Of a stretch of 64,000 nt of DNA, positions 40,933 to 45,077 are shown one piece after another. The notes below the pieces were generated by a model. It was not told the DNA's origin, searched no databases, and saw only the letters and a program-made list of their open reading frames with translations. Position numbers and translations under genes: made by a program. Positions within the stretch are counted from its first letter, which is position 1; each line of letters begins with the position of its first letter. The DNA comes from Rivularia sp. MS3. Its GTDB lineage: Bacteria; Cyanobacteriota; Cyanobacteriia; Cyanobacteriales; Nostocaceae. The stretch lies in contig JAHCMI010000005.1 of the NCBI GenBank assembly GCA_019192545.1, positions 121,516 through 185,515 on the forward strand. The letters are read 5' to 3'.

Positions 40933-41149
40933 CCACATACAACGTCACCTAGTACGTCATAAGATACGAAATCTAAATCCTGGTAAGCGCCATTTTCTTC
41001 TAAGAAGTTAATGGAGGTGATAATACCTCTACCTGCACATCCGACTCCAGGCTCTGGACCGCCGGATTCTACACAACGAACGCCGCGATAGCCTTCGAGC
41101 ATTACTTCTTCAAGTTCCAAATCTTCTACTGCACCTCTTTCAGCAGCCA
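40933..41149 (-). CDS. nifH: nifH fragment 3 (codons from Ala65 region to Gly136)
   Basis: Nitrogenase iron protein, middle segment. After the repeat TGGCTGCTGAA it adds codons 68-135 plus two bases: RGAVEDLELEEVMLEGYRGV through CVESGGPEPGVGCAGRG to DVLGDVVC-GG. This includes the cluster ligand Cys in GVGCAGRG and the second in VVCG. The frame then runs into element sequence (ISASNNLK, stop). No substitution breaks the reading frame, which argues for a gene that is reassembled rather than decayed. The ATG at 41150 is an accident of the junction and not a start. Confidence 0.92.
41139..41149. repeat. Attachment core of nifH element 2, left copy
   Basis: TTCAGCAGCCA on the plus strand, identical to 43032-43042. 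It encodes (L)AAE of NifH on the minus strand. Confidence 0.9.
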
Positions 41150-41261
41150 TCAGTGGTTTACTTTTGCTTATTCATCAACGTAAACTGTTCTATACAAACA
41201 TTGTAGCCATTTAACTATGTTTGTAAATCACATTATTTTTTAAGCAAAAGTAAGCAATAAT

Positions 41262-42653
41262 ATGACAGATATACAGGGCAAGGTTTTTAATGATTTTATC
41301 CCTCCAGCGACTACTGATGGCTCCTATCGAGGCAAGAAAGAGCAACGAGACGCTACTCAAAAACATTTCCGTATGAAATTAAAGCAAGAATTAGCAACGA
41401 TAAATCAAAGACTCAAACAATCCAAGATAAAAGTGAAGCTACTCCTTACAGGTAACGCTATCCAGCTACAAGCTACGCTACCGTTGAAACCGAGCGATAC
41501 TCATAAGCAAGGAAGAAGCAACAAGCAATATAAGATATCGCTCGGAATTCCAGCAAATTTTGACGGGTTAAGGACTGCTGAAGAAGAAGCTCAAGAGCTA
41601 GGCAAATTAATTGCTCGTCAAACTTTTATATGGACTGATAAGTATTTAGGAGTTAGAGCTACTAAAGAAAAGGGTATAACTTTTAGAGAATTCTACGATA
41701 TTTTTGAAAAAAAATACTTTGCCAATAAAAAAAAGACAAGAAAAAGTGTTGGTACTTTTGAGAATTATAAAAGTAGATATAAAAGTATTTTTATGTCAGA
41801 TGAAGTTATATCAGCTAAATCTTTAAGAGAGATAGTTTTATCAATTTGTTCTCCGACTCCAAGATATGAAGCTATAAGAATAGCATCAATAATATCTAAT
41901 TTATTATCAATAGATACGAAATTTACTGACCTAATACTTAAGCAAGAGAAACGTGAAAGGAATATACCATCAGATAAAGAAATCGTCTTTTATATAAATA
42001 ATTTTCAAAAGCAATATGAATCGGCGAAAAATACTCCGAAATCTATAAGACACAAATGGAAAATTTATAAACTAGCTTACGGTTTATTAGCAATTTATGG
42101 TTTACGTCCTAGAGAAATAGTTAATAAACCTGATTTAAACTGGTTACTCTCACCAGAAAACGTTAGAAATACTTTCAAAGTACATGCTGATAATAAAACT
42201 GGGTATAGAGAAGTAGTTCCTTTTGTTGCTGATTGGGTTGAATTATTCGATATAAAGAATGAAGCAAATATCCGATTGTTTCAGGATACTATGCTTGGAT
42301 GCACTACAAGCAGAGAATTACATTTGAAAGTTGGTTTAATATCAAGTAATTTTGTTCGCTCAAAAATACCTTTTCAACCATACGATCTACGTCATGCTTG
42401 CGCTATTCGGGCACATTTGCAGGGAGTTCCAATTAAACCAGCATCCGATAATCTAGGACATACTGTTGAAATGCATACTAAAGTTTATCAGCATTGGTTC
42501 GGCTTCGATAATCGAGTCAAAGCTTTCAATCAAGCACGGCAAGAACAAAATGAATTGCAACATGCTTATGATGAAATTGCTAATTTGCGTAAAAGAGTAG
42601 CCGAATTAGAATTAGAAAACATTAGATTACGTCTAACTAGTAAAACGAAATAA
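41262..42653 (+). CDS. XisA/XisC-type tyrosine recombinase of nifH element 2
   Basis: 463 residues starting MTDIQGKVFNDFIPPATTDG. The conserved N-terminal part (LQATLPLKPSD, ISLGIPANFDGL, EEAQELGKLIARQTF) and C-terminal catalytic domain match the heterocyst excision recombinases. Catalytic features: Arg in GLRPREI, box II YDLRHACAIR (Tyr where most integrases have His), LGHTVEMHTKVY with the nucleophile Tyr, and a C-terminal coiled coil (LRKRVAELELENIRLRL). The middle (about 150-260) differs strongly from the two sister recombinases. It should excise the 1893-bp element in differentiating heterocysts. Confidence 0.9.
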   Translation: MTDIQGKVFNDFIPPATTDGSYRGKKEQRDATQKHFRMKLKQELATINQRLKQSKIKVKLLLTGNAIQLQATLPLKPSDTHKQGRSNKQYKISLGIPANFDGLRTAEEEAQELGKLIARQTFIWTDKYLGVRATKEKGITFREFYDIFEKKYFANKKKTRKSVGTFENYKSRYKSIFMSDEVISAKSLREIVLSICSPTPRYEAIRIASIISNLLSIDTKFTDLILKQEKRERNIPSDKEIVFYINNFQKQYESAKNTPKSIRHKWKIYKLAYGLLAIYGLRPREIVNKPDLNWLLSPENVRNTFKVHADNKTGYREVVPFVADWVELFDIKNEANIRLFQDTMLGCTTSRELHLKVGLISSNFVRSKIPFQPYDLRHACAIRAHLQGVPIKPASDNLGHTVEMHTKVYQHWFGFDNRVKAFNQARQEQNELQHAYDEIANLRKRVAELELENIRLRLTSKTK

Positions 42654-43031
42654 TCAAGATAGCACACCATAAAGCACTCTACTGTTAACTAGACTTCTTT
42701 TATCTTTTAGAAGTCTATTTTTCTTAATCGATTGGAGTTACCCATTTATAAGTTATAGAAGATACAAACTAAATAGAGTAATTAAAAACAATATTTTTCT
42801 TATGGTATATCTGACCACAAAAATATTTATCGATCGCAACATAGCTATAAATATAGTTTTTAATAGCTATATAACTAAGCAATAAGTAAGCAATTGTTTT
42901 ACTGTTTTTCTGCCCATATTTCAACTAATAGATAAACCATCTGCAAATTCACGCTAAGCAATAAGCAAGCAATATTATTATCTATATAGATAAAGTCTCC
43001 ATATAACAAGCTATTTATAAAGCTTTTATGG
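42654..43031. other. Noncoding end of nifH element 2
   Basis: 378 AT-rich bp between the recombinase stop and the right core. The phrase AAGCAATAAG(T/C)AAGCAAT occurs at about 42880 and 42957. No gene was found. Confidence 0.5.
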
Positions 43032-43203: not shown

Positions 43204-43524
43204 AGTATTTCTATAATATATCGAAGTCTTACCAACAAAGCTTTTCAAAAAAATATCTAATATCTAACACTATTTTCACCCTAAATAAACCATCCCAAAT
43301 TAATATAATGTCAATCAAAATAAGCATTTTACTTAATTTCTCTACACTAACTGTTCCCTTAAAATAAATGTAAACTATAGGTATAATTCCGATTAAATAA
43401 AAAAATGTATAACCATATATCTTTTTTAGTTAAAAAATAAAAGTAGACCTTTATAGCCTACTTAAAAAAATCTATAGAGAATTGTTAGTAAACCATAATT
43501 AGTTTAATTCATAAGAAATGAAAA
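43204..43524. other. Noncoding end of nifH element 1
   Basis: 321 AT-rich bp between the core at 43203 and the recombinase stop. Nothing recognisable is present. Confidence 0.5.
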
Positions 43525-44928
43525 TTAATACCTTTGTCCTTCAAACTCTAACTTTATTTTATATTTAGCTAATTCAGTTTCTAACTCAGTTATGCGTTTT
43601 TTGAGAAATACTACTTCATCTTTTAATGTATCAACTTCATTATTATTCTCAGCAGTTTGTTGAAAGGCTTTACGTCGATTCTCTAAGCCAAACCATCTTT
43701 GGTACACTTTTGTATGTATATCTACAGAATGACCTAAATTATCAGATGCTGCTTTAATAGGAACTCCTTGTAAATGCGCTCGAATAGCACAAGCATGTCT
43801 TAAATCATATGGTGTAAATTGTAATCCTATATTAGAGAAAAATTTTGAAAGATTAGTTACCATTCCAGCTAAAGCAGATGGTGTTATTTCTCTATCCACA
43901 TAATCTTTTAAAAGATTAATATTCTCTTGGTTTTTGATATCAAAAAGTTCAATCCATTCTGACACAAAGGGAAATACCTCTCTGTATCCAGTTTTGTTAG
44001 ATTCGTGAACTTTAAAGGTGCTATGTTCATTTTCAGATGAAACCAACCAGTTTAAATCGGGTTGATTCATGATTTCTCTAGGTCGCAATCCATACACGGC
44101 TATTAAACCGTATATTAGTTTGTAAATTTTATTGCTTTTAATGCTTTTAGGCTTAACTGCTTTGATTTGTTGTAAATGTAGATCGAAACAAAGATATCCC
44201 ATCGTGATATCCTTATCCAATGGAATATTGCGTTTATTTTTTTCTATCTTTAATTTCAAAACTTTGAAATCAGTTTTTAGATTAAATTTTTTAGCAATTG
44301 TATATCCTAGTTTGATTGCATGTTCTCTAGTATGAGGAGTTTTAGAAGTTAAAATGCAATTTACTAAATTTTCTGAATTTATTGGTATGTCTTGCAAAAA
44401 ATGTCTTCTGTAACATCTGATGACACCTTGATAAGTACTTTCACTTTTTAAATTACGCTTCCGAGTTGAAAAATAAAAGCTTTCAAATTGTTCGTAAAAT
44501 TCTCTAAAGGTAATGCTTTGTTTCTTATAAGCTTTAATTCCTAAGTATTTGTCATTCCATGCAAAAGTTTGACGAGCAATTAACTTCCCTAATTCTTGTG
44601 CTTCCTCTTCAGCTGTTTTTAATCCGTCAAAACTAGCTGGTATACCTAGACTTATGGTGTATTGCTTTCTTTGTTTCCCTTTCGGGTGTACGTCTGTTGG
44701 CTTCAAGGGAAGAGTGGCACGTAGTTGAATAGTTCCTTTTCTTGAATGAATGCTTACCTTAGTCTTGCTGGTTTTTAATCGTTGATTTACTTCTACTATT
44801 TCTTGTTCGAGCTTCATTTGTAAATGCTTTTGGGTTGCGTTAGCCACTTTTTGTCTTCCAGCAAAACTTCCATCAGTGGTAGTTGGTACTTCAAAATCGC
44901 TGAAAACTTCACCCTGTATATCTCTCAT
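43525..44928 (-). CDS. XisA/XisC-type tyrosine recombinase of nifH element 1
   Basis: 467 residues starting MRDIQGEVFSDFEVPTTTDG. The same conserved N-terminal block (LRATLPLKPTD, ISLGIPASFDGL, EEAQELGKLIARQTF), Arg in GLRPREI, box II YDLRHACAIR and nucleophile region LGHSVDIHTKVYQRWFG are visible, with a C-terminal coiled coil. It is a paralogue of the enzymes at 41262 and 50682, most different in residues about 150-260, which may read the different core sites. Predicted role: excision of the 1845-bp element from nifH codon 12. Confidence 0.9.
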   Translation of the reverse strand: MRDIQGEVFSDFEVPTTTDGSFAGRQKVANATQKHLQMKLEQEIVEVNQRLKTSKTKVSIHSRKGTIQLRATLPLKPTDVHPKGKQRKQYTISLGIPASFDGLKTAEEEAQELGKLIARQTFAWNDKYLGIKAYKKQSITFREFYEQFESFYFSTRKRNLKSESTYQGVIRCYRRHFLQDIPINSENLVNCILTSKTPHTREHAIKLGYTIAKKFNLKTDFKVLKLKIEKNKRNIPLDKDITMGYLCFDLHLQQIKAVKPKSIKSNKIYKLIYGLIAVYGLRPREIMNQPDLNWLVSSENEHSTFKVHESNKTGYREVFPFVSEWIELFDIKNQENINLLKDYVDREITPSALAGMVTNLSKFFSNIGLQFTPYDLRHACAIRAHLQGVPIKAASDNLGHSVDIHTKVYQRWFGLENRRKAFQQTAENNNEVDTLKDEVVFLKKRITELETELAKYKIKLEFEGQRY

Positions 44929-45041
44929 TTTTACACTAAAAGTACACTATTATTTGTGCTGTTTACTGCTAACAATTAATCAACTTAAACTGTTACAGAT
45001 AAACATATCACGATAAATTACGCTTTTAGTTAACAAATGCT

Positions 45042-45077
45042 GTAGAACGCTATCTGTCTGATATTTTCGTCAGTCAT
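45042..45077 (-). CDS. nifH: nifH fragment 1 (start codon and codons 1-12)
   Basis: The ATG at 45075-45077 begins MTDENIRQIAFY, the standard NifH N-terminus, in exactly 36 bases, ending with the repeat GTTCTAC. Beyond it the frame enters element sequence (SIC, stop). A ribosome site AGGAGAAAA precedes the ATG. The location, 185 bp after nifU, is the normal nifH position. Confidence 0.92.

Follow-up and report, generated by a model that had tools for sequence, protein, structure and literature searches.

We report that three interruption elements split nifH of the cyanobacterium Rivularia sp. MS3 into four exons, and the anatomy of the sequence makes it very probable that each element is excised by its own recombinase in heterocysts. 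The gene was read in a stretch of 64,000 nucleotides (the window; C109:121516-185515, where C109 is one contig of the draft genome). Eleven further elements lie in nif, hup and cox loci of the genome, so that seven excisions would be required for a working NifHDK set, with possibly an eighth in the leader of nifB. The genome (9.19 Mb, 174 contigs, 100% complete, 1.59% contamination) was queried as a whole with the recombinases of the first and third nifH elements (e1 and e3) and with the nifD and nifK models, and the loci found were then read; since the survey covered the nif, hup and cox loci, the total of 14 elements is a minimum. Counts among relatives refer to a sample of 388 genomes from the order, of which 71 belong to the family. 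Comparisons with published work refer to parts of the text of each cited source, the supplementary tables and figures of PMC4874684 lying outside the text compared.

nifH exons and interruption elements

nifH lies on the minus strand and starts at window position 45077. Exon 1 (45042-45077, codons 1-12) ends in the repeat GTTCTAC (45042-45048) and is followed by e1 (43204-45048, minus strand, 1,845 bp, at nifH nucleotide (nt) 30), which repeat comparison shows to be bounded by copies of GTTCTAC at 45048 and 43203. Exon 2 (43032-43203, minus strand, codons 13-67) leads into e2 (41150-43042, minus strand, 1,893 bp, at nt 191), for which the same comparison gave copies of the 11-bp repeat TGGCTGCTGAA at 43042 and 41149. 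Exon 3 (40933-41149, minus strand, codons 68-135) ends at a GG dinucleotide, the predicted crossover of e3; this element is 98,855 bp long according to the genome search and the join, and it occupies 1-40934 of the window on the minus strand and ends at C109:63595, beyond window base 1. The two ends of e3 share GG at window 40934 and C109:63594 (nt 406), and exon 4 (codons 136-297) lies outside the window on the same contig and strand, from C109:63594 downward. All three elements are contained whole in one contig of 185 kb.

When the four exons are joined, the predicted NifH has 297 amino acids; on TIGR01287 it reaches 470.2 bits, above the cut-off of 394.35, and spans model positions 1-273 of 275. 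A first-pass annotation of the window, made from its letters, had described a nifH split on the minus strand by elements of 1845 and 1893 bp and a joined frame without error; both sizes, both repeats and both junctions, IAFY-GKGG and LAAE-RGAV, were exact, and the frame is free of errors over its whole length. It had also placed a third break after codon 135, beside an XisF-like enzyme, and this break is e3.

Each small element carries a gene for a predicted tyrosine recombinase, as had likewise been claimed. That of e1 (43525-44928, minus strand, 467 amino acids) was identified as an open reading frame (ORF) and by alignment and Pfam scan, and that of e2 (41262-42653, plus strand, 463 amino acids), which is opposed to nifH and starts near the end of the element, as an ORF and by alignment. 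The e3 enzyme (39461-40870, minus strand, 469 amino acids) is an ORF with the Pfam domains of an XisF-like large serine recombinase. Each of these enzymes would likely excise its own element as the cell becomes a heterocyst, whereby one NifH frame would be restored; crossover would take place within the 7-bp repeat of e1, within the 11-bp repeat of e2 and, as is expected of a serine recombinase, in the GG dinucleotide of e3. For e3 a longer repeat was also considered, and the repeat listing gave just one misplaced 6-base match; a join at GTGG loses one glycine, whereas the GG join retains CGGF and gives the junction DVVC-GGFA.

The first-pass annotation had suggested a genome search for a second, intact nifH, and had regarded such a gene as reason to abandon its reading if it alone supported nitrogen fixation. 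Among eight nifH matches in the 174-contig draft no second nifH of the nitrogenase type was found: three correspond to nifH exons, four are weak matches of no more than 30 bits, and the single near-full-length candidate is the protochlorophyllide reductase BchL, with 487 bits on TIGR01281.

Recombinases

According to PMC4874684, the recombinase gene of an interruption element lies just inside one end, at the start if it is co-oriented with the interrupted gene and at the end if it is opposed to it. This arrangement is seen in all three nifH elements, e1 and e3 having co-oriented genes at the element start and e2 an opposed gene at the element end, although for e1 and e2 the recombinase gene fills most of the element and the test is a weak one. 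Joining at the ends restores the reading frame for all 13 elements of the genome that lie in coding sequence; in nifH, nifK and coxA the two ends of the serine elements have only a dinucleotide in common. Because the elements combine a recombinase inside one end with repeats or a dinucleotide at each end and can be joined in frame, the data support interruption elements of the developmental type as the best reading.

The genome has ten XisA-like copies, which align with invariant GLRPRE, PYDLRH, LGH and Y409, presumably the catalytic boxes of tyrosine recombinases. The e1 recombinase scores 24.6 bits on PF00589 (Phage_integrase), under the curated cut-off of 27.1, and that of e2 gave no match in the Pfam scan; by their alignment with the eight other copies of the genome both are XisA-like tyrosine recombinases. 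In the e3 enzyme the Resolvase, Recombinase and zinc-ribbon domains are each above their cut-off, and the XisF-type assignment rests on these domains.

The best ten of 13 tyrosine recombinase matches in the genome (at least 344 bits) are all inside nif, hup or cox elements. Two further tyrosine matches (106 and 89 bits) are on contig C131, and a tyrosine match on C1 (153 bits) and a serine match on C110 (27 bits) were set aside, there being no interrupted gene around them as judged by eye. An inverted repeat between the end repeat and the recombinase start was rejected as a general trait, because only 4 of 10 tyrosine elements beat all 100 shuffles.

Two recombinases were compared with those of relatives by the ratio of nonsynonymous to synonymous substitution rates (dN/dS), and both are under purifying selection. 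For the e1 recombinase dN/dS is 0.125 against Calothrix parasitica NIES-267 and 0.114 against a Calothrix metagenome assembly, and for that of the first nifD element it is 0.092 against NIES-267; the yardsticks against the latter genome, nifU and nifS, gave 0.053 and 0.050, respectively. In a tree of 40 recombinases, hand-picked from those at hand and with 11 rows in no group, the eight groups defined by insertion site need seven changes, which is the minimum possible (shuffled mean 20.3). The nifK93 group alone needs two changes and support for nifH12 and nifH67 is modest (82/92 and 77/78), while the nifD452 and hupL recombinases cluster with same-site copies from other genera. Since recombinase relatedness follows insertion site, the tree fits a history in which most sites were filled once and then inherited.

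Fourteen elements in the genome

The 14 elements are distributed over the nifB leader (1), nifH (3), nifD (3), nifK (1), hupS (2), hupL (1), coxB (1) and coxA (2). In nifD, the first (1,734 bp, repeat CGATTAA) is at nt 227, the second (1,936 bp, repeat GTCCCATCGGTCTC) at nt 467 and the third (31,160 bp) at nt 1353, the last with the repeat GGATTACTCCG, which we take to be the classic XisA site. The nifK element is of the serine class (core TA, nt 1283) and about 52 kb or more in size; it is split over two contigs, with 25.2 kb on one and 26.7 kb on the other. Joined NifD scores 869 bits (cut-off 654) over model positions 1-466 of 466, and joined NifK 899 bits (cut-off 427) over positions 1-516 of 516.

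At the hup loci (contigs C125 and C126) hupS is cut by a serine element (nt 49, spanning a contig gap) and then by a tyrosine element (1,840 bp, repeat ACAAGAA), and hupL is cut once (6,317 bp, repeat ATAGCAGTTATATGGTG); hupS exon 1 sits on a separate contig. The cox locus (contig C15, L042:7724-16012; genes named by eye) has coxB cut once (1,690 bp, repeat GCAGTTTGCTTGGATTTTTAGTT) and coxA twice, by a serine element of 1,969 bp with core TT and by an element of 1,838 bp with repeat GTTCATCATATGTTT. Another coxA join was discarded because it gave a broken protein; joining at TT keeps one frame. HupS, HupL, CoxB and CoxA each join in one frame, for the last three by frame check only.

An element in the nifB leader

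The fourteenth element (49942-52197, minus strand, 2,256 bp) was found by alignment with relatives, with copies of TGAGATA at 52197-52191 and 49941-49935, and it interrupts no coding sequence that could be found. On the minus strand the order of genes is nifB (48225-49682; 680 bits on TIGR01290), fdxN (47660-48004; a ferredoxin ORF named by eye), nifS (46290-47498; an ORF named by eye), nifU (45263-46168; 431 bits on TIGR02000) and nifH, the first four all uninterrupted. The element thus lies ahead of the first gene of the cluster, 4.9 kb upstream of nifH and at a distance of about 250 bases from the start codon of nifB. Its XisA-like tyrosine recombinase (50682-52076, minus strand, 464 amino acids; ORF, alignment and Pfam scan) begins 115 bases inside the element and reads toward nifB. 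The insertion point is 65 bases after TGATATAA (52262-52269, minus strand), which alignment indicates to be conserved upstream of nifB. An extended -10 has been described for nifB1 promoters (PMC8510180), and TGATATAA, a candidate for such an element, would fit it.

Joining at TGAGATA restores a 28-base leader, GGGATGAGATAGCACC, which is present exactly in 28 of the 71 family genomes and, with up to three mismatches, in 51 of the 388 genomes sampled from the order, every one of which belongs to the family; conservation of this kind suggests that the leader has a function. The window genome, being interrupted, lacks the contiguous 28 bases. In alignment the leader is uninterrupted in five close relatives (a Calothrix metagenome-assembled genome (MAG), L068; the Richelia MAGs SL_2_1 and UBA3308; NIES-267; and Rivularia sp. 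T60_A2020_040, of the same genus as the window genome), whose sequence at the join spot differs by a few bases, so that the exact match is with the wider family and not with the nearest kin. Absence of the leader within three mismatches (20 of the 71 genomes) does not imply interruption; Rivularia T60, one of these 20, merely has a leader without some of the bases. No leader match was obtained in the 8-kb stretch searched in Plectonema cf. radiosum LEGE 06105, and no known RNA family was found in the nifB leader at an E-value of 0.1.

What this element does depends on the transcription of the cluster. Most of the nif cluster is reported to be driven by the nifB promoter, and in an xisA mutant that retains the 11-kb nifD element the genes behind it are reported to be poorly transcribed (PMC4284476). 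From these two results we infer that nif induction would itself lead to expression and removal of the leader element. Its excisase would be transcribed from the nif promoter, made first and then free the operon. A self-releasing switch of this kind, in which the nif promoter transcribes an excisase that removes its own element and so joins the promoter to nifB and to the seven-times interrupted nifHDK, is put forward tentatively, and we hold it to be somewhat doubtful as a whole. The element could instead be a harmless stray copy through which transcription reads, only the elements in coding sequence being excised. This is a serious possibility that falls a little short of being probable: a scan of the element detected no terminator on its nif strand, which would permit read-through without excision and speaks against a switch (the other strand has one terminator-like site, fewer than in shuffles), and the uninterrupted leader of the five relatives implies that the insertion may be young. 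A stray copy is, however, harder to reconcile with ends, repeat and recombinase frame that are all intact, with a join that exactly restores a highly conserved leader and with the effect of the unexcised nifD element in the xisA mutant. Should the self-releasing switch be true, DNA excision would be a regulatory step on transcription, beyond gene repair, and the element in the leader would represent an interruption element that acts on the link between promoter and gene. The element would make the choice between parasites and parts of nif control directly testable.

Interrupted nifH in relatives and alternative explanations

A full-length nifH match is absent in 21 of the 71 family genomes, and mapping of these 21 gave nifH with one element in 15, with two in five and with three in the window genome. 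The counts are minima, since exons shorter than about 20 codons were missed (as were codons 1-12 of the window genome), and they cover the 21 genomes without a full-length match. C. parasitica NIES-267 has e1 at the same nifH site with a recombinase that is 91% identical. The Richelia MAG SL_2_1 has nifH in five pieces, and UBA3308 has eight pieces on four contigs and hence seven breaks. Six of the UBA3308 joins were chosen by script, each with a shared core of between 3 and 13 bases. Near codon 260 the script joined the seventh break poorly, and the 7-base repeat TACACCT listed there is, in our reading by eye, its true core. The breaks include all three sites of the window (nt 30, 192 and 404 in UBA3308, the e2 site thus within a base), and the recombinases at shared sites are 66% (e2) and 83% (e3) identical.

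Several observations weigh against excision during development. The excision itself, the cell type, the order of events, the pairing of enzyme and site and the role of the promoter are all deduced from the sequence anatomy of one draft assembly. The e3 crossover is placed by a 2-bp core, its exact point resting on frame and homology, and the nifK element and the first hupS element run across contig ends. Joined HupS is under the generic hydrogenase cut-offs (135 of 470 bits and 121 of 180 bits), which we read as the absence of a cyanobacterial model. Finally, XisI, on which excision of the classical fdxN element depends (PMC4874684), is absent from C109, C125 and C15, its seven matches all being on other contigs.

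That excision in this strain is deduced would also suit fixed insertions, with nifH a recent pseudogene and N2 fixation lost or carried out via other genes. We consider this very unlikely, because decay would have left at least one frame or repeat damaged, whereas all seven interrupted genes join in frame, the recombinases compared have dN/dS of about 0.1 and e1 persists with its repeat in NIES-267. That unrelated sequence was joined into nifH by assembly errors is more improbable still, since, in spite of a draft in 174 contigs with two elements spanning contig ends, the nifH elements lie on a single contig, e1 occupies the identical site in NIES-267, whose genome is nearly complete, and all three sites recur in UBA3308, itself a metagenome assembly.

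NIES-267 has interruptions in nifB, nifH (at two sites), nifD and nifK, and probably in nifE as well. In Plectonema LEGE 06105 the nifH exon with codons 48-139 is on the strand opposite to its neighbours, which suggests an inversion or an assembly flip.

Comparison with known systems

Recombinase elements that split nifH within one genome are known from Anabaena sp. 90, which has two (80 and 5.9 kb) and exons of 153, 273 and 444 bp (PMC3542288); in the present genome the breaks are at nt 30, 191 and 406 and there are three elements, two of just 1.8-1.9 kb. Hilton, Meeks and Zehr (2016; PMC4874684) described elements of the same build, i.e. with direct repeats and a tyrosine or serine recombinase inside one end, with up to four in one gene (nifD, as in Rivularia PCC 7116) and 11 in one genome, and they list six nifH variants and, in Table 1, 22 interrupted orthologs. 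By position, e3 (nt 406) belongs to their variant nifH 405, their rule being a distance within 10 bp, and our nifD sites match their positions 227 and 1353-1355. Several elements per gene are therefore already published and the kind is not new: the first-pass annotation was right that three elements of two recombinase classes sit in nifH, while the novelty it saw in this has to be trimmed in view of the two elements in nifH and the four in nifD just cited. What is new, relative to the text compared, is a genome with 14 elements where the published maximum is 11, coxB as a target (it is outside Table 1), the element in a non-coding leader, which because of this location would escape a search for truncated genes, and the seven nifH breaks of UBA3308. 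Our literature search, mostly of titles and the starts of abstracts and with few subscription journals, returned no prior paper on these strains or on the leader element, and none that describes the other new features just listed or an element acting between a promoter and its gene.

Judged by gene site and class, the hupL enzyme is of the kind of XisC, and the e3 enzyme of the kind of XisF, of Anabaena/Nostoc 7120. In contrast to the fdxN element of that strain, e3 has no XisI nearby, and fdxN is uninterrupted here. Developmental excision likewise rebuilds a gene when SP-beta leaves the Bacillus subtilis chromosome during sporulation (PMC4191935), one prophage in one gene, as opposed to several small single-recombinase elements in one gene in Rivularia. 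That nifHDK alone would depend on seven precise excisions, carried out by enzymes of two unrelated classes, illustrates the extent that developmental gene fragmentation can reach, as does the eight-piece nifH of the related assembly UBA3308. A split nifH can, moreover, escape nifH surveys and annotation, a concern for surveys already raised in PMC3542288.

Genes carried by the large elements

No tRNA gene was found in C109:20001-160000. The third nifD element holds a paralogue of elongation factor G (named by eye; C109:38796-40000), a gene that may occur only in interruption elements (PMC4874684). Inside e3, window positions 24400-38401 hold what by eye is a set of genes for iron-siderophore uptake (with binding proteins, TonB, a receptor, permeases and an ATPase), and C109:65848-102410 has genes that, also by eye, resemble a phage-tail or contractile injection cluster.

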